Origin: Fibrobacter succinogenes
GTDB lineage: Bacteria; Fibrobacterota; Fibrobacteria; Fibrobacterales; Fibrobacteraceae
Assembly: GCA_902795385.1 (NCBI GenBank)
Contig: CADBLC010000007.1
Location: 1 to 32,762, forward strand
Reading direction: 5' to 3'
Length of the DNA stretch: 32,762 nt
Shown: positions 5,560 through 10,922 of the stretch, piece by piece
Layout: the number at the start of each line of letters is the position of its first letter
Numbering within the stretch: position 1 is the stretch's first letter
Translations under genes and position numbers: made by a program
Notes under the pieces: model-generated
Database searches by the model: none
What the model was told of the DNA's origin: nothing
What the model saw: the letters and a program-made list of their open reading frames with translations, nothing else

Positions 5560-5773
5560 CCTCCGCGGATTGAAGCTAGAATTGCATCAGTAGGTTCAGC
5601 CCGCTGCCGCCATTGAAAAAATCAAGCGACGGAAGGAGGGACATTTTTATGGAACCGGACGTTCCACGCCTTTGGTTGTAACTGTCCAAAGATCGCTGGT
5701 ACTCGTCACGTTTGTTTGCATGACCCTTGCGTTCGCTGTACTTGTAGATATTATACGAAAGAACGGGGATGCC
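5560..5773 (-). repeat. Repeat block, copy 2
   Basis: Near-identical to 234-447 over 214 nt with no gaps. It includes 16 nt (5560-5575) beyond the paralog's stop that match the end of the AlkD-like gene although no AlkD frame exists here. Confidence 0.85.
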
Positions 5774-6100
5774 TATCAACAGAAGCGGAATTGATCCTAC
5801 GATTAAAAGTCCACCGCCGATACGGTCGCCGACATCATCCCAGGTTTCTGGATGATAGTTGTCTAAAAGAACATTTATGCCCAACCCTAGGAAAATGCCC
5901 CCTGTTACAGTGAATATGCCACCCCATACGATTCCAGCCACGTTGTGTCCGCCGGAAGCGACAATATCTTCCTGTTTAATCAATTCCTCGTATATTTGGC
6001 TGCTATCTGCAACTGATTCCTTGTACAAAAGGGAATCTTCCTGTGCAAATACAGTACAGGCCGCGACAAGGACGAAAATTAATGTATGTAGGGCTCGCAC
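5576..6100 (-). CDS. Small exported/membrane protein, paralog 2 of 3
   Basis: A 174-aa paralog of 250-768 with unknown function. The GTG at 6098-6100 is the chosen start: it opens a signal-like sequence (MRALHTLIFVLVAACTVFAQ) and a TATATT lies exactly 6 nt upstream (6107-6112 on the other strand), as for several genes in this window. VAAC could be a lipobox, or cleavage could follow VFA. Two hydrophobic glycine-rich stretches follow, then SERKGHANKRDEYQRSLDSY and the conserved tail. The C-terminal ~65 codons are nearly identical to paralog 1 in DNA, while the signal peptide and 5' flank match paralog 3, so the gene is a mosaic of the two. It lies about 100 nt upstream of the PLAT operon on the same strand but has its own apparent promoter. 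Confidence 0.65.
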   Translation of the reverse strand: MRALHTLIFVLVAACTVFAQEDSLLYKESVADSSQIYEELIKQEDIVASGGHNVAGIVWGGIFTVTGGIFLGLGINVLLDNYHPETWDDVGDRIGGGLLIVGSIPLLLIGIPVLSYNIYKYSERKGHANKRDEYQRSLDSYNQRRGTSGSIKMSLLPSLDFFNGGSGLNLLMQF

Positions 6101-6133
6101 GCTTTAAATATAACCCATTTTGTGAAAAAGTTT

Positions 6134-6293
6134 ATCCTCCGCGGATTGAAACTAGAATTGCATCAGTAGATTCAGTCCGCCGCCGCCATTGAAAAAATCA
6201 AGCGACGGAAGGAGGGACATTTTTATGGAACCGGACGTTCCACGTCTTTGGTTGTAACTGTCCAAAGATCGCTGGTACTCGTCACGCTTGTTT
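6134..6293 (-). repeat. Repeat block, copy 3
   Basis: Matches 232-391 over 160 nt with only a handful of mismatches and no gaps. It includes 18 nt (6134-6151) past the paralog's stop that match the AlkD-like gene end. It abuts, within 3 nt, the 5' flank of copy 2 (6101-6131), which is itself identical to the 5' flank of copy 3 (6674-6704). That shows a head-to-tail duplication unit of about 570 bp. Confidence 0.85.
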
Positions 6294-6673
6294 TGGTGCT
6301 CGAGACGAACGCCGTACATAGAGATGTTGTATAAAAAAACAGGAATTCCAATCAAACACATGGGAATAGACACTATTAGGAGCGAAACGCCGAAATAGCT
6401 GGATGTAATTGCGTCTATGGCATCGTCATTGGCAGAACGTATAAGATATATTCCGCCAATTAGTAACAGCGTTCCTCCTCCTACCATTAGCCCTCCAGCG
6501 AAAGACCCGGAAGCGTTGCCGGATAATCCTTCTGCATTAAGGCGTTCCTGTTCAATCAGTTTCATGTATATCTGTGTGCTGTCTACAACGGGAACTTGTG
6601 GGGCGTTCTCGTTCTGTGCAAACACAGCACAGGCCGCGATAAGGACGAAAATTAATGTATGTAGGGCTCGCAC
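6152..6673 (-). CDS. Small exported/membrane protein, paralog 3 of 3
   Basis: A 173-aa paralog of the two genes described at 250-768 and 5576-6100. The GTG start at 6671-6673 gives the same signal sequence as paralog 2 (MRALHTLIFVLIAACAVFAQ) and has the same TATATT 6 nt upstream (6680-6685 on the other strand). The middle has two hydrophobic segments that differ clearly from the other copies. The region just before the shared tail (SMYGVRLEHQNKRDEYQ) is also diverged, and identity resumes at NKRDEYQ. The gene is divergent from the GH30 gene, with a 72-nt shared promoter region. Function unknown. Confidence 0.65.
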   Translation of the reverse strand: MRALHTLIFVLIAACAVFAQNENAPQVPVVDSTQIYMKLIEQERLNAEGLSGNASGSFAGGLMVGGGTLLLIGGIYLIRSANDDAIDAITSSYFGVSLLIVSIPMCLIGIPVFLYNISMYGVRLEHQNKRDEYQRSLDSYNQRRGTSGSIKMSLLPSLDFFNGGGGLNLLMQF

Positions 6674-6745: not shown

Positions 6746-8695
6746 ATGAAGGGATTGGTTCAGAAATTTACAGTTGTTTCGGCGGCTTTCGGCGTTGCGT
6801 GCCTTGCAGGCATTGCATCCCCTGCGCATGCGCAGACCAAGGTCGTCGTGGATCCGGGGAAAAAGTACCAGGTTTTCGAAGGCTGGGGCACTAGCCTCTG
6901 CTGGTGGGCCGTGAAGGCGGGCGCCTGGAGCGAGGCGAACCGCAGTAGCCTTATCGGTGCGATTGCCGACCCCGATACGGGTCTGGGCTACACGATTTTC
7001 CGCTACAACATCGGCGGTGGCGACCAGCCGGGCCATAACCACCTCACGAAGGGTGACGGCGGCGGCAAGGTTCCGGGTTACAAGCCCACCGAGAAAGGCG
7101 ATTACGACTGGACGGCCGACCCGTACCAGCGCGCGATTGCATTGGAACTCGCCAAGCGCGTGAAGGACCCGATTTTCGAGGCGTTCAGCAATTCGCCCCC
7201 GTGGTGGATGACCAAGAGCGGCTGCGTTTCGGGAAGTAGCGACGGCAGCGACAACCTCAAGGAAGACTACTTTGACGACTTCGCGGACTACCTCTCCGAA
7301 GTGGCGCTGCACTTCAAGACGGAATGGGGGCTCACGTTCCGCACGGTGGAACCTTTCAACGAGCCTAGCGCCGGCTGGTGGAAGTCTAACGGCGGGCAGG
7401 AAGGTTGCGGTTTCAAGAACAACCAGTCTAAGATGATTGTGGAACTCGGCAAGGCGCTCCAGAAGAAGGGGCTCTTCCCGGAAACGTCGGTGAGCGCCGC
7501 CGATGAGACGTCCATCAAGCAGGCGCACGACCAGCTGGGCAACTACACCGCGGAGGCGCTCTCTTACCTGGGGCAGGTGAACACGCACAGTTATTCCGAC
7601 GGCAGCTACCGCAAGCAGCTTTTCAACCGCGCCTTCGGCCTGAACAAGCGCCTTTGGCAGTCCGAAACGGGCCCGCTTAGCAAGAGCGGCGACGAACATA
7701 TCGCACTCTGGATGGCAAACGTGATTATCCAGGACCTGCGCGACATGCATGCGGAAGCGTGGATAGACTGGCAGATTGGCGACCCGGCCGAGAACTGGCG
7801 CAGCCTCGCGCTCAACCACAGTAAGCAGACTTTTACGCCGAACGCGCGCTACTACATGCACGCCGCATTCAGCCGCTACATCCGTCCGGGGTCCCGCATT
7901 ATCGATAGCGACAACGGCAATACGCTCGCGGCGCTCCGCCCCGACGGAGCCCTGGTGCTTATCGTGCGCAACAGCGGCTCTAGCGACGTGAAGTACAGTT
8001 TTGACCTGGGCGAGTTTGTGAAGATTGGCACGAGCGCGAAGGTGGTGCGGTTCGAACTGCCCGGCAGCTTGACCAAGCAATCCGACATCGCGGTTTCGGG
8101 CAAGGCACTCTCGATGACGGCGAAGGCCAACACGATTACCACGATGGTGATTGACGGTGCCGAGGGTGGCGCCTGCAAGCCGGATTCCATCATTCCGTAC
8201 GTGAAAATCCACAGCAATAGCGGCTGGGACGAGACGACCGACGTGAAGTTGAACAAGGGCGACTCGCTGGTGATTGGCCCGCACCCGTGGGAAGGCGGCC
8301 GCTGGGTATGGACCGGCCCGAAGGACTTCGGCAGCACTAGCCGTGAAATCCGCTTCAAGAACATGGACGGCACCATGAGCGGCTACTACAAGGCGGTCCA
8401 CACGAACGCCTCGGGCTGCGAAGGCTCCGTGACGTTCAAGGTGGTGGTGGACGATCCGGCGCACCCGTTCGTGGAACCGGACACGGCGAAGGATACCGCC
8501 ATAACGTTCTTGCGCGGACTCGTTCCCGAAATCTGTTCCATGCAGCAGGGCTTCAGCGTTGGTGAACCGCTGCAGGTGTTCGACGTGCAGGGGCATTTCC
8601 TGAAAAATGTGCAGGAATTCCGTCCGCAGGACTTCCGCCCGGGCGTCTACATCGTAAAGCAGGGTTTCCGCGTGCGCCAGATTCGCGTGCAGTAA
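6746..8695 (+). CDS. Secreted glycoside hydrolase, GH30-like, with Ig-like module and C-terminal sorting-type tail
   Basis: A 649-aa protein with a signal peptide (1-29, ending SPAHA) and a GH30-type (beta/alpha)8 domain at about 33-380. Family marks are VFEGWGTSLCWWA (43-55), FSNSPPWWM (147-155), the acid/base Glu206 in EPFNEP and the nucleophile Glu307 in LWQSETG. Residues 385-470 form the beta side domain of GH30. An Ig-like/CBM-like module spans about 483-570 (GGRWVWTGPKDFGSTSREI). The last ~50 residues (FDVQGHFLKN ... GVYIVKQG ... RQIRV) look like the C-terminal tail used by type IX secretion. GH30 members cleave beta-1,6-galactan, beta-1,6-glucan or glucuronoxylan; substrate cannot be told from motifs alone, though GTSLCWWA recalls galactanase-like members. 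It acts outside the cell. GC-rich, unlike the island before it. Confidence 0.85.
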   Translation: MKGLVQKFTVVSAAFGVACLAGIASPAHAQTKVVVDPGKKYQVFEGWGTSLCWWAVKAGAWSEANRSSLIGAIADPDTGLGYTIFRYNIGGGDQPGHNHLTKGDGGGKVPGYKPTEKGDYDWTADPYQRAIALELAKRVKDPIFEAFSNSPPWWMTKSGCVSGSSDGSDNLKEDYFDDFADYLSEVALHFKTEWGLTFRTVEPFNEPSAGWWKSNGGQEGCGFKNNQSKMIVELGKALQKKGLFPETSVSAADETSIKQAHDQLGNYTAEALSYLGQVNTHSYSDGSYRKQLFNRAFGLNKRLWQSETGPLSKSGDEHIALWMANVIIQDLRDMHAEAWIDWQIGDPAENWRSLALNHSKQTFTPNARYYMHAAFSRYIRPGSRIIDSDNGNTLAALRPDGALVLIVRNSGSSDVKYSFDLGEFVKIGTSAKVVRFELPGSLTKQSDIAVSGKALSMTAKANTITTMVIDGAEGGACKPDSIIPYVKIHSNSGWDETTDVKLNKGDSLVIGPHPWEGGRWVWTGPKDFGSTSREIRFKNMDGTMSGYYKAVHTNASGCEGSVTFKVVVDDPAHPFVEPDTAKDTAITFLRGLVPEICSMQQGFSVGEPLQVFDVQGHFLKNVQEFRPQDFRPGVYIVKQGFRVRQIRVQ

Positions 8696-8715
8696 CTAAT
8701 TACTATACTTTGTGC

Positions 8716-9474
8716 ATGCTTTTACAGACAACAGCACAAAAAATCGCATTTATCCTCCTGGTCATTTTCCTCCTTGTCACAACAGGGAAAGACTGGCTCG
8801 ACTTTCACACTTGCGGAGCGGTTGGCAACTGCCTCTCCGATGCGGGGACATTGCAGCTTTACACCAAGTCCGCGATGACGACCCTGCTCACGCTGCTCGC
8901 GTTTTTCGCGGTGCCGTCGACGTTCTCTGCCAGGGACGGCAAGCTGTTGCGCATCGCGTTCGTCTTCTCGCTCCTAGCCGATTACAGCTTCAGCCTGATC
9001 AAGGCGTTCTTCCATAATTCTGGGAGCCTCAGTTCCATCTTGGGAATCGCGTTTTTCATGGTGTTCCAGTCCATCCTGATTTACAGGCACTCGCGTAAAT
9101 CGGAATCCGATACGGCGCTGCCCAAAATCTACTGGCTGCTCGCTGTCGCTGTGGTTGCCGGAGTAGTCTTGATGGCAACGGGAACGTTGGACTTGGTGAC
9201 AGCTGTTGTCGCTGTCTACGCCGTATTCGTCATCACCTCGGTGGTGGTCGGTTTCCTCGCTCCGCGCAAGGGATATTTCCCCGCCGTTAACGCCAAGCTT
9301 ATCCGCTGGGGCATGCTCGCGTTCTTCTGCTGCGATGCGTGCGTCGGGCTCTCGATGGCAGGCGGCGACGACCACACTACAATGATGACCGTCTCCGAAA
9401 TCGCGAACAACTTCATCTGGTGGTTCTACGTACCGGCGCAGCTCATGCTTATTCGCGCTACGGCAAAACCCTAG
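8716..9474 (+). CDS. YhhN-like multi-pass membrane protein
   Basis: A 252-aa, strongly hydrophobic protein with about seven or eight membrane segments. The ATG at 8716 is preferred to a TTG at 8710 because TATACT (8704-8709) sits 6 nt before it, the spacing seen at other genes here. The end, with AFFCCDACVGLSMAGG followed by NFIWWFYVPAQLMLI, fits the last helices of the YhhN/TMEM86 family, whose eukaryotic members are lysoplasmalogenases. The bacterial function is unclear. It lies 20 nt after the GH30 gene with no visible terminator between, so some read-through is possible. It converges on the 6S RNA candidate. Confidence 0.6.
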   Translation: MLLQTTAQKIAFILLVIFLLVTTGKDWLDFHTCGAVGNCLSDAGTLQLYTKSAMTTLLTLLAFFAVPSTFSARDGKLLRIAFVFSLLADYSFSLIKAFFHNSGSLSSILGIAFFMVFQSILIYRHSRKSESDTALPKIYWLLAVAVVAGVVLMATGTLDLVTAVVAVYAVFVITSVVVGFLAPRKGYFPAVNAKLIRWGMLAFFCCDACVGLSMAGGDDHTTMMTVSEIANNFIWWFYVPAQLMLIRATAKP

Positions 9475-9478
9475 ATAC

Positions 9479-9644
9479 AAAAAAAAGGCATCCTACACGG
9501 TGGAACACTCGAAACTACTATTATGAAATGATAGCAGTGCCTCGGGGCTTTGTTTTTCGCGTCGTAGCGCGCCTAAACTGAACCACAAGAGCAACGAGCT
9601 GAAATAATCTTGTTAGATCGGGCGTTAATCCGTGTGATGCCTGT
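9479..9644 (-). ncRNA. ssrS: Candidate 6S RNA
   Basis: No protein is encoded in 9475-9743. On the minus strand a ~166-nt transcript is predicted. The ends pair in a long closing stem: AGGCATC (9641-9635) with GATGCCT (9492-9486), then ACACGG (9635-9630) with CCGTGT, about 13 bp with a small bulge, followed by eight Us. An inner hairpin CTGCTAT/ATAGTAG occupies the 3' half, and CUCG/CGAG arms flank the distal part. Length, closing stem, open middle and position directly downstream of zapA (as in Proteobacteria) all fit 6S RNA, which binds sigma70 RNA polymerase in stationary phase. A promoter places the transcript start at the closing stem. It could still be another structured RNA. Confidence 0.6.
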
Positions 9645-9650
9645 ATTCTT

Positions 9651-9679
9651 AATATACATCCGAATCAATCCAAAAACAA
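9651..9679 (-). promoter_or_regulatory. Promoter of the 6S RNA candidate
   Basis: On the minus strand, TTGTTT (9679-9674), a 17-nt spacer and TATATT (9656-9651) predict a start at about 9644, exactly where the closing stem of the RNA begins. Confidence 0.6.
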
Positions 9680-9743
9680 TAGAGAATTTACTCGAAATTG
9701 TACTTAGATTGTCAGATTAGTGTAAAATATTCGGAACGTGGCG

Positions 9744-10061
9744 TTATTCCCAGCTCTTGGGCGTATCGATGCCTTCGTCCAGCATGCTCGATATGTCCTT
9801 GATGCTTTGGTCCATCTGTTCCTTGTAGACTTTCGCCTGGTGCAGCCTGCGCTTTGCCTCGAACAGCTGTTGGGCCATTTCGAGGGCGAGGAGGGCCATG
9901 CGTTTTCCGGCTTCCAGGTTGTATTTCCCGTAGCTTGCGTAACGTTCGTCGATGTAGTCGACAATTTCCTTCAGGTCCGCGTCGGAGAGGTCCGTGCGGA
10001 TCTGAAGCCGTTCCTTGGCTACGTTGATACTTATCGATCTGTGGGATTCTACGTCAGCCAT
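9744..10061 (-). CDS. zapA: Cell division protein ZapA
   Basis: A 105-aa protein with the ZapA pattern: an N-terminal beta strand region (SHRSISINVAKERLQIRTD) with polar loops, YIDERY in the first helix, then a long C-terminal coiled coil (about 45-95). ZapA binds FtsZ and bundles protofilaments at the division ring. AGGA stands 7 nt before the ATG. It lies 42 nt downstream of a coiled-coil gene, probably one transcript, and directly upstream of the 6S RNA candidate. Confidence 0.85.
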   Translation of the reverse strand: MADVESHRSISINVAKERLQIRTDLSDADLKEIVDYIDERYASYGKYNLEAGKRMALLALEMAQQLFEAKRRLHQAKVYKEQMDQSIKDISSMLDEGIDTPKSWE

Positions 10062-10103: not shown

Positions 10104-10922
10104 TTAGCCGAAAAAATTTGTTTGCGAGCCTCCATTGCTCGCAGAGAAAAGGTCGTTGTCCTTCTCGTTGGCGCCGTGGACTTCGATGGGGAGGTCTTCG
10201 TCTTCGGCAATCTGGTTGAAATCGAGTACGGGCTCCTGTTCGGGGGCTTCGTCGTTGGCGGGTTCTTCCGCGACAGTCTCTTCGGCGGCTTCTTCGACGA
10301 CAGGTTCGACTGTCGGTTCGTTGGCCGGTTCTTTGGCAGGGGCTTCCTGGGCAGGGGCCGGCTCGGCAGCGGGTTCTGCGGCGCCTTCCGCGGAGGTTTC
10401 GAAGGAGTGTTCGACAGGGAATTCGGTGCCGAGCTCGTTTTCGATGGTGGAGAGGAGCTGCTTGAACTTTTCCTGGGCTTCGGAGATTTCTTCGCCCTGA
10501 GCCTGGATGGTGTCGTTCAGCTTCTCGATGGCGGATTCCTTTTCGGCAAGCTGGCCATTGAGGCTCTCGATGAGGTTTTCTTTTTCGGAAATGGATGCCT
10601 TGAGGCTGTCGATTTCCCCGCCCTTGGCGGCAATTTCTTCTTGTTGCTGGTTCAGCAGGCTGCGGAGGTCGCTGATTTCGTCAATTTTGAGATTCAACGC
10701 TTCGTTCTGGGCCGCCGCCTGGTTTTCGCGGGCGTTCAGGGCGGCCTTGCAGTCGATAAGGTCCGCGTTCGCGGTTTCCAGGAGCATGGTCTTGTCCTGA
10801 AGTTCGGCATTGGCGCCGGCTAGCGCCTGCTTCAGTCCTGCCACTTCTTGACGAAGGTTGCGCACCGTGGCGAGTACGCTGTCCACCTTTTGCGAAAGAA
10901 GGTTGATGTTCTCTAGGTTCAT
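10104..10922 (-). CDS. Coiled-coil protein upstream of zapA
   Basis: A 272-aa cytoplasmic protein with no signal peptide. Residues 1-170 are one long coiled coil with heptads (for example IESLNGQLAEKESAIEKLND). Residues 180-240 are a low-complexity acidic linker of repeated EPA/EEPA units. A short conserved-looking end (LFSASNGGSQTNFFG) closes it. GGAG precedes the ATG. Position before zapA suggests a division partner, perhaps a ZapB-like or septal linker protein, with the C-terminal peptide as a docking motif. That function is inferred from context only; no family was recognised. Confidence 0.7.
   Translation of the reverse strand: MNLENINLLSQKVDSVLATVRNLRQEVAGLKQALAGANAELQDKTMLLETANADLIDCKAALNARENQAAAQNEALNLKIDEISDLRSLLNQQQEEIAAKGGEIDSLKASISEKENLIESLNGQLAEKESAIEKLNDTIQAQGEEISEAQEKFKQLLSTIENELGTEFPVEHSFETSAEGAAEPAAEPAPAQEAPAKEPANEPTVEPVVEEAAEETVAEEPANDEAPEQEPVLDFNQIAEDEDLPIEVHGANEKDNDLFSASNGGSQTNFFG

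Follow-up and report, generated by a model that had tools for sequence, protein, structure and literature searches.

6S RNA, which most bacteria carry, binds to the active site of RNA polymerase holding the housekeeping sigma factor as a mimic of an open promoter, and the enzyme is released when a short product RNA (pRNA) is synthesized from the central bubble and the P2 helix (PMC8876501). In beta- and gamma-proteobacteria its gene is embedded in the arrangement ZapB-ZapA-SsrS-(FAU1), and the SsrS-FAU1 pair is broadly distributed among Proteobacteria (PMC7641849). The order in E. coli is zapA-ssrS-fau. A literature search on 6S RNA together with zapA or its neighbours showed no description of the zapA-6S order outside Proteobacteria, and in the paper found on 6S RNA together with Fibrobacter or Fibrobacteres the name Fibrobacter occurred only within a reference title. 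Neither the genome paper nor the RNA-seq paper on strain S85 contained any of the ncRNA terms that we searched for. There is reportedly a survey of 6S RNA across bacteria from 2014, and an earlier prediction of a Fibrobacter 6S RNA may exist in the literature.

Fibrobacter is a key degrader of cellulose in the rumen. We analyzed a stretch of 32,762 nucleotides of the Fibrobacter succinogenes assembly GCA_902795385.1 (contig CADBLC010000007.1; hereafter the window), in which an earlier note had proposed a 6S RNA gene. The models, intermediate lineages and covariation patterns described below support this proposal, and the interval 9479-9644 very probably encodes the 6S RNA of this cell, in a divergent form. 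The features of the locus, all on the minus strand, are the following:

9479-9644, minus strand: very probable 6S RNA gene, 166 nt (fold z -3.29; covariance models R2 and R3)
9674-9679, minus strand: -35 element TTGTTT (read from the sequence; TTG conserved in 34 of 35 aligned loci)
9651-9656, minus strand: -10 element TATATT (read from the sequence; conserved in 35 of 35 aligned loci)
9630-9642, minus strand: closing stem P1, 5' strand, RNA nt 3-15 (MFE fold; covariation)
9618-9626, minus strand: P2, 5' strand, AACGCCCGA, RNA nt 19-27; predicted template for a product RNA starting opposite U28, a start assigned by analogy
9600-9617, minus strand: central bubble, 5' side, beginning UCUAACA, RNA nt 28-45 (R3 alignments; ensemble prediction)
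9539-9599, minus strand: apical arm, RNA nt 46-106 (covariation in helices 5-7)
9515-9538, minus strand: predicted hairpin within the 3' side of the central bubble, RNA nt 107-130 (MFE fold)
9486-9500, minus strand: closing stem P1, 3' strand, RNA nt 145-159 (MFE fold; covariation)
9479-9486, minus strand: U8 tail of the terminator (read from the sequence)
9744-10061, minus strand: zapA (PF05164, E 1.7e-6), the upstream neighbour on the strand of the RNA
10104-10922, minus strand: coiled-coil protein, possibly ZapB-like (PF06005 ZapB, E 0.0023, below the cut-off and among many coiled-coil matches)

The two promoter elements (9679-9674 and 9656-9651) are separated by a spacer of 17 nt and place the start at the A of position 9644, precisely as the earlier note had read them; the length of 166 nt counted from there to 9479 agrees with its estimate as well. 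The one aligned locus that deviates in the -35 element carries TTC instead of TTG. Our consensus promoter scan does not list this promoter because TTGTTT agrees with TTGACA at too few positions. At its 3' end the RNA reads GAUGCC followed by eight Us (9486-9479), so that the U8 end had been recognized correctly while GAUGCCU plus eight Us contained one U too many. Folding of the interval, which had been suggested as a check, gave an MFE of -50.6 kcal/mol (z -3.29), a value that none of 200 shuffled sequences equalled, and the closing stem, anticipated at about 13 bp, is formed in the MFE fold by 7 + 6 pairs with a 2-nt bulge. The ensemble prediction leaves the 5' side of the central bubble largely unpaired, and its CUAACA motif aligns through R3 in register with the bubble of the other 6S RNAs of the phylum. 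The overall architecture is that of 6S RNA: a closing stem, P2, an open central bubble with a hairpin on its 3' side, and an apical arm. Elsewhere in the window, the plus strand carries a gene for a glycoside hydrolase of family 30 within 6746-9474 (PF14587), and a 254-aa hydrophobic protein with no Pfam match at E 0.001 is encoded at 8710-9474, convergent with the 6S terminator. Positions 5576-6673 hold two tandem paralogous minus-strand ORFs (174 and 173 aa), whose N- and C-termini are nearly identical and whose middle parts have diverged.

Similar DNA was present in 35 of the 60 genomes searched, the window's own included, and all 35 belong to the same genus; identity per matched piece in these genomes ranges from 77 to 99% when the window itself is excluded. 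Mean pairwise identity amounts to 0.79 inside the RNA versus 0.33 just upstream, and the ZapA protein is less conserved than the RNA (e.g., 41% versus 88% in genome G003). To follow the RNA further, we used R2, a covariance model derived from 32 distinct aligned copies with a hand-made structure. It replaced R1, a model with an automatically derived structure in which the closing stem was missing and the alignment was shifted at that place in a minority of sequences; no conclusion rests on R1. Among 167 genomes of the phylum, R2 matched 76 of the 80 from the genus, the four misses being genomes of 62-82% completeness, and at E below 0.01 it matched 16 genomes from other genera of the family (E 1.3e-29 to 0.0016), to which a less filtered search added G160 (9.7e-8), G094 (3.2e-7) and G103. 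The E-value of 8.2e-47 for positions 9477-9642 of the window's own genome is expected by construction, the window sequence being part of R2. Antisense matches, a consequence of the pseudo-palindromic fold, made up 17 of the 61 rows of one R2 search and were removed by a stricter E-value in a later search, whose sources did not include L137 and L140, the latter being cut at its 5' end. The gene is single-copy in most genomes. Genome G153, which has the RNA next to zapA, gave an additional weak R2 match on contig C57 (31380-31519, L138; E 0.03) that may be a paralogue or a chance match. In several genomes of the genus (L082-L085; e.g., L083, 3843-4049) the RNA has about 40 extra nucleotides at the apical end and a length of 207-208 nt; the U run after the closing stem is weaker in these loci, and some of them have a separate hairpin just downstream.

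The predicted structure is reflected in the pattern of substitutions. Two-sided changes occur at 28 of 40 pairs in 42 aligned sequences and 95.7% of the cells pair, pair counts that favour the structure because the alignment was fitted to its own model R2; the covariation score is 0.270, versus 0.115 in shuffled and 0.026-0.055 in slid controls. Every one of the 12 modelled pairs of the closing stem (helices 1-2) shows two-sided changes, as do 4 of 8 pairs in P2 (helices 3-4) and 12 of 15 in the apical arm (helices 5-7). In L027-L030 the closing stem has been rewritten on both strands, a change visible by eye. Four of the five pairs of helix 8, the hairpin in the 3' side of the bubble, are invariant, so that covariation neither supports nor refutes this element. 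The RNA thus presents the covariation-supported rod of closing stem, central bubble and apical arm by which 6S RNAs are recognized, and it has the size (about 160-200 nt), the usually single gene and the transcription signals of its own that go with it. This locus is a real gene for a structurally constrained RNA with its own promoter.

Direct support from the standard 6S model RF00013, the covariance-model check that had been envisaged, was absent. Rfam at the gathering score returned nothing for this RNA in the window, and in a permissive scan of 9400-9760 with all 4227 Rfam families RF00013 had no match even at E 10; the sole row was a chance match to narK (E 7.7), and RNase P, tmRNA and SRP RNA were set aside solely on this outcome. 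RF00013 did not match anywhere in the window's whole genome, nor in 16 loci from the family's other genera at E up to 5. Of the 167 genomes of the phylum, 31 had an RF00013 match when E-values up to 10 were allowed, chance matches included, and three had one above the cut-off. The weak RF00013 matches inside the family (E 1.19 or worse) were rejected as chance, those compared being located on contigs other than that of the RNA. The gathering cut-off, below which this RNA remains, is an operational detection criterion and not a biological definition. The standard model is thus blind to what is very probably the Fibrobacter 6S RNA, and annotation relying on RF00013 would overlook the gene; the models built here recover the RNA in nearly all genomes of the genus and provide a bridge to other lineages.

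R3 was built from 20 loci that RF00013 had found elsewhere in the phylum (families f9, f4, f7 and f13). It detects 6S RNA in most of the other families of the phylum, with matches across f9, f8, f7, f12, f11, f13, f4 and f6 plus a single genome of f3. When 18 sources (74 kb) were searched with R3 unfiltered, the best 4 of 82 rows were the RNA studied here (L006, E 0.0021; L087, 0.0083; L027, 0.011; the window, 0.024), followed by a short hairpin at the RNA's end in L126 and, in row six, by L122 (0.04). The match in the window, the best one there, spans 9483-9644 and the full length 1-169 with 17.2 bits (E 0.024 in 74 kb), and the alignments of the top loci of the genus are likewise full length. 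Further down, L019, L128, L133, L124 and L123 appear at E 0.23-1.1; among the family's most divergent members, L126 and L127 gave edge fragments only, L135-L137 partial matches or none, and L129, L131 and L134 have no listed match at the RNA. Filtered genome-wide R3 searches of the window's genome fail to return the site. For calibration, we noted that, within the 5 kb surrounding zapA of E. coli, R3 matched ssrS best (18.0 bits), and that RF00013-verified 6S RNAs of Nitrospinota/Nitrospirota receive 18.6-26 bits; with 17.2 bits, R3 thus rates the RNA about like a true 6S RNA of another phylum. R2 does not detect E. coli ssrS.

Intermediate lineages were sought in 19 zapA loci from f1 (genera g15 and g20), f2, f3, f4, f5, f6 and f10, together with one locus without zapA. 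At the sites that R3 marks beside zapA, R2 gave E-values of 1.1e-9 (g20), 2.3e-9 (g15), 1.3e-5 (f6), 8.3e-5 and 4.6e-4 (f2) and 2.2e-4 (f5), and weaker matches at several f3 loci; for g15 and g20 the E-values of R2 and R3 lie between 1e-9 and 2e-6. In the f5 locus (L194) RF00013 itself reaches 31.1 bits at the zapA-adjacent site (E 0.014, below the cut-off). The agreement of R2 and R3 in g15, g20, f2, f5 and f6 forms a chain from the window RNA over the intermediates to accepted 6S RNAs. The direct match of the window is weak by itself (E 0.024), and the profile homology is established via the register of the R3 alignments and these intermediates. Judged by this chain of sequence models, the RNA is homologous to RF00013-recognized 6S RNAs through intermediate lineages; the covariance-model check was thereby answered in favour of the proposal by lineage models, intermediates and strong covariation.

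The RNA lies about 100 nt downstream of zapA in the window, in the direct adjacency that the earlier note had described. The two genes are adjacent on one strand in 23 of the 35 genomes, the matched stretches being separated by 85-182 nt. The remaining 12 no longer have zapA adjacent, and RNA and promoter are intact in all of them. Eleven of these (L082-L092) have the zapA-coiled-coil-uvrC block inverted, so that uvrC now stands beside the 6S gene; this reading rests on uvrC and the coiled-coil gene, which now separate the RNA from zapA and are arranged as an inversion would leave them. In the twelfth (G031), about 2.3 kb without uvrC separate the two genes.

This neighbourhood bears on the possibility that the element is an attenuator or part of the 3'-UTR of zapA and not a separate gene. 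Its position on the strand of zapA and directly downstream of it in most genomes would fit such an element, but the RNA's own promoter is conserved in all 35 loci, and RNA and promoter survive the displacement of zapA, including that in the 11 inverted loci, which sets the RNA apart from the zapA transcript; we regard this explanation as exceedingly improbable. A family-specific structured small RNA with another function, such as antisense regulation or protein binding, that resembles 6S RNA in shape only would account for the lack of any Rfam match, gathering or permissive, and for the unusually invariant loop sequences GCUC, CUAUC and GUAG. Against it speak the occupation of the same syntenic slot by the 6S RNAs that R3 or RF00013 detects in f2, f3, f5 and f6, and the g15 and g20 copies recognized by both R2 and R3. 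Moreover, most bacteria carry a 6S RNA (PMC8876501), yet RF00013 found no alternative candidate in the window's genome and R3 only one 26-nt fragment (E 3.34). Such an RNA therefore seems improbable to us. A further alternative is an RNA of the Ms1 type, which attaches to core polymerase lacking sigma; a structural relationship of Ms1 to 6S RNA has been described (PMC9130861). Profile and position, in contrast, tie the RNA to the 6S RNAs of its own phylum, making an Ms1-like identity highly improbable.

As a 6S RNA, and by analogy with the known family, the molecule would accumulate as growth slows, occupy RNA polymerase carrying the housekeeping sigma factor by mimicking an open promoter, and damp transcription. 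On recovery, the polymerase would copy a short product RNA off P2 and the central bubble. The predicted pRNA would start opposite U28 (window position 9617), a start chosen by analogy, and read 5'-AUCGGGCGUUAAUC, beginning AUCGGGCG; its synthesis would open P2 and release the enzyme. A helix by which the central bubble could collapse after pRNA binding is predicted for the window RNA (nucleotides 46-50 with 134-138). Among 26 representatives it was no better than in shuffled bubbles (mean z -0.25), and we dropped this element.

Of more interest than the identity of the RNA is that the zapA-6S order recurs in distant phyla. In 16 of the 19 fetched loci of the phylum, R3 matches the stretch that immediately follows zapA on its strand (E 3.3e-15 to 0.0092), the exceptions being two f4 loci and one f10 locus. 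In the two f4 loci (L179 and L180), an ORF with a FolD-like translated start abuts zapA and leaves no room for a 6S gene, which is found on another contig; either 6S was naturally relocated out of the zapA slot in f4 or it was never there. The 6S RNAs that RF00013 found in f9, f7, f4 and f13 are not on zapA's contig in the genomes compared. A scan of a named genome collection with a ZapA alignment yielded 49 loci: 9 from Nitrospinota/Nitrospirota, 6 from the phylum itself (L186, L193, L194, L201, L206 and L230) and 34 others, comprising Zixibacteria, Eisenbacteria, Neomarinimicrobiota, KSB1, Gemmatimonadota, a Clostridiales, an Effluviviaceae, one Chitinivibrionales and further bacteria. In all nine loci whose label is Nitrospinota, Nitrospina, Nitrospinaceae, Nitrospirae or Nitrospirota, RF00013 finds a 6S RNA just downstream of zapA (86.7-90.4 bits). 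None of the 34 other loci gave an RF00013 match at E up to 0.1, a few being weak negatives with only about 200 nt after zapA; R3 returned one 59-nt fragment from these 34 (L196), and neither model gave a full-length 6S match beside zapA in the sampled Zixibacteria, Eisenbacteria and Marinimicrobia. The old synteny that the earlier note had suspected gains support from the occurrence of zapA-6S in five families of the phylum, in Nitrospinota/Nitrospirota and in E. coli, but the order is not universal.

The surrounding genes recur as well. A Nitrospina locus (L218) reads pheT, a ZapB-like gene (E 1.3e-4, below the cut-off), zapA, 6S, 5-formyltetrahydrofolate cyclo-ligase and rny; a Raymondbacteria locus (L186) reads pheT, zapA, 6S and rny; a Fibrobacteria locus (L194) reads a ZapB-like gene (E 2.3e-6, below the cut-off), zapA, 6S and a polyprenyl synthetase gene; and in L201 folD follows 6S. 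Because many families of the phylum lack the zapA-6S order, ancestral inheritance with losses and repeated gain are both possible, and we consider the chances evenly balanced that the arrangement pheT-zapB-zapA-6S-folate gene (fau or folD)-rny was, in whole or in part, ancestral to Pseudomonadota, Nitrospinota/Nitrospirota and Fibrobacterota. If it was, zapA-6S would rank among the most ancient conserved positions of a regulatory RNA gene and would point to a selected link among division control, folate metabolism and the shutdown of transcription. With the order, including its folate gene and rny, recurring in phyla far from Proteobacteria, the old question of why 6S lies next to a gene for cell division can be put to the test in lineages that have kept it, broken it by inversion or lost it.

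The known systems share much with this locus. In free B. subtilis 6S-1 RNA the bubble already contains a small hairpin on its 3' side (PMC8876501), which the MFE fold predicts here too; the collapse helix proposed for 6S-1, in contrast, lacks statistical support here. The 6S RNAs of f9, f7, f4 and f13 begin and end at the same model positions as the window RNA, and those of f9 have a CUAACA-type 5' bubble after P2; unlike the window RNA they are found by RF00013, mostly below the cut-off, and away from zapA's contig in the genomes compared. RF00013 does not detect the window RNA, whose family shows strong conservation of CUAACA and of the GCUAUC...GUAG hairpin; several relatives have about 40 extra apical nucleotides. 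The window RNA agrees with the RF00013 6S/SsrS family, as represented by E. coli ssrS and B. subtilis 6S-1, in its length, its own promoter and its architecture of closing stem, P2, central bubble and apical arm, and with E. coli ssrS it also shares the zapA-6S gene order.
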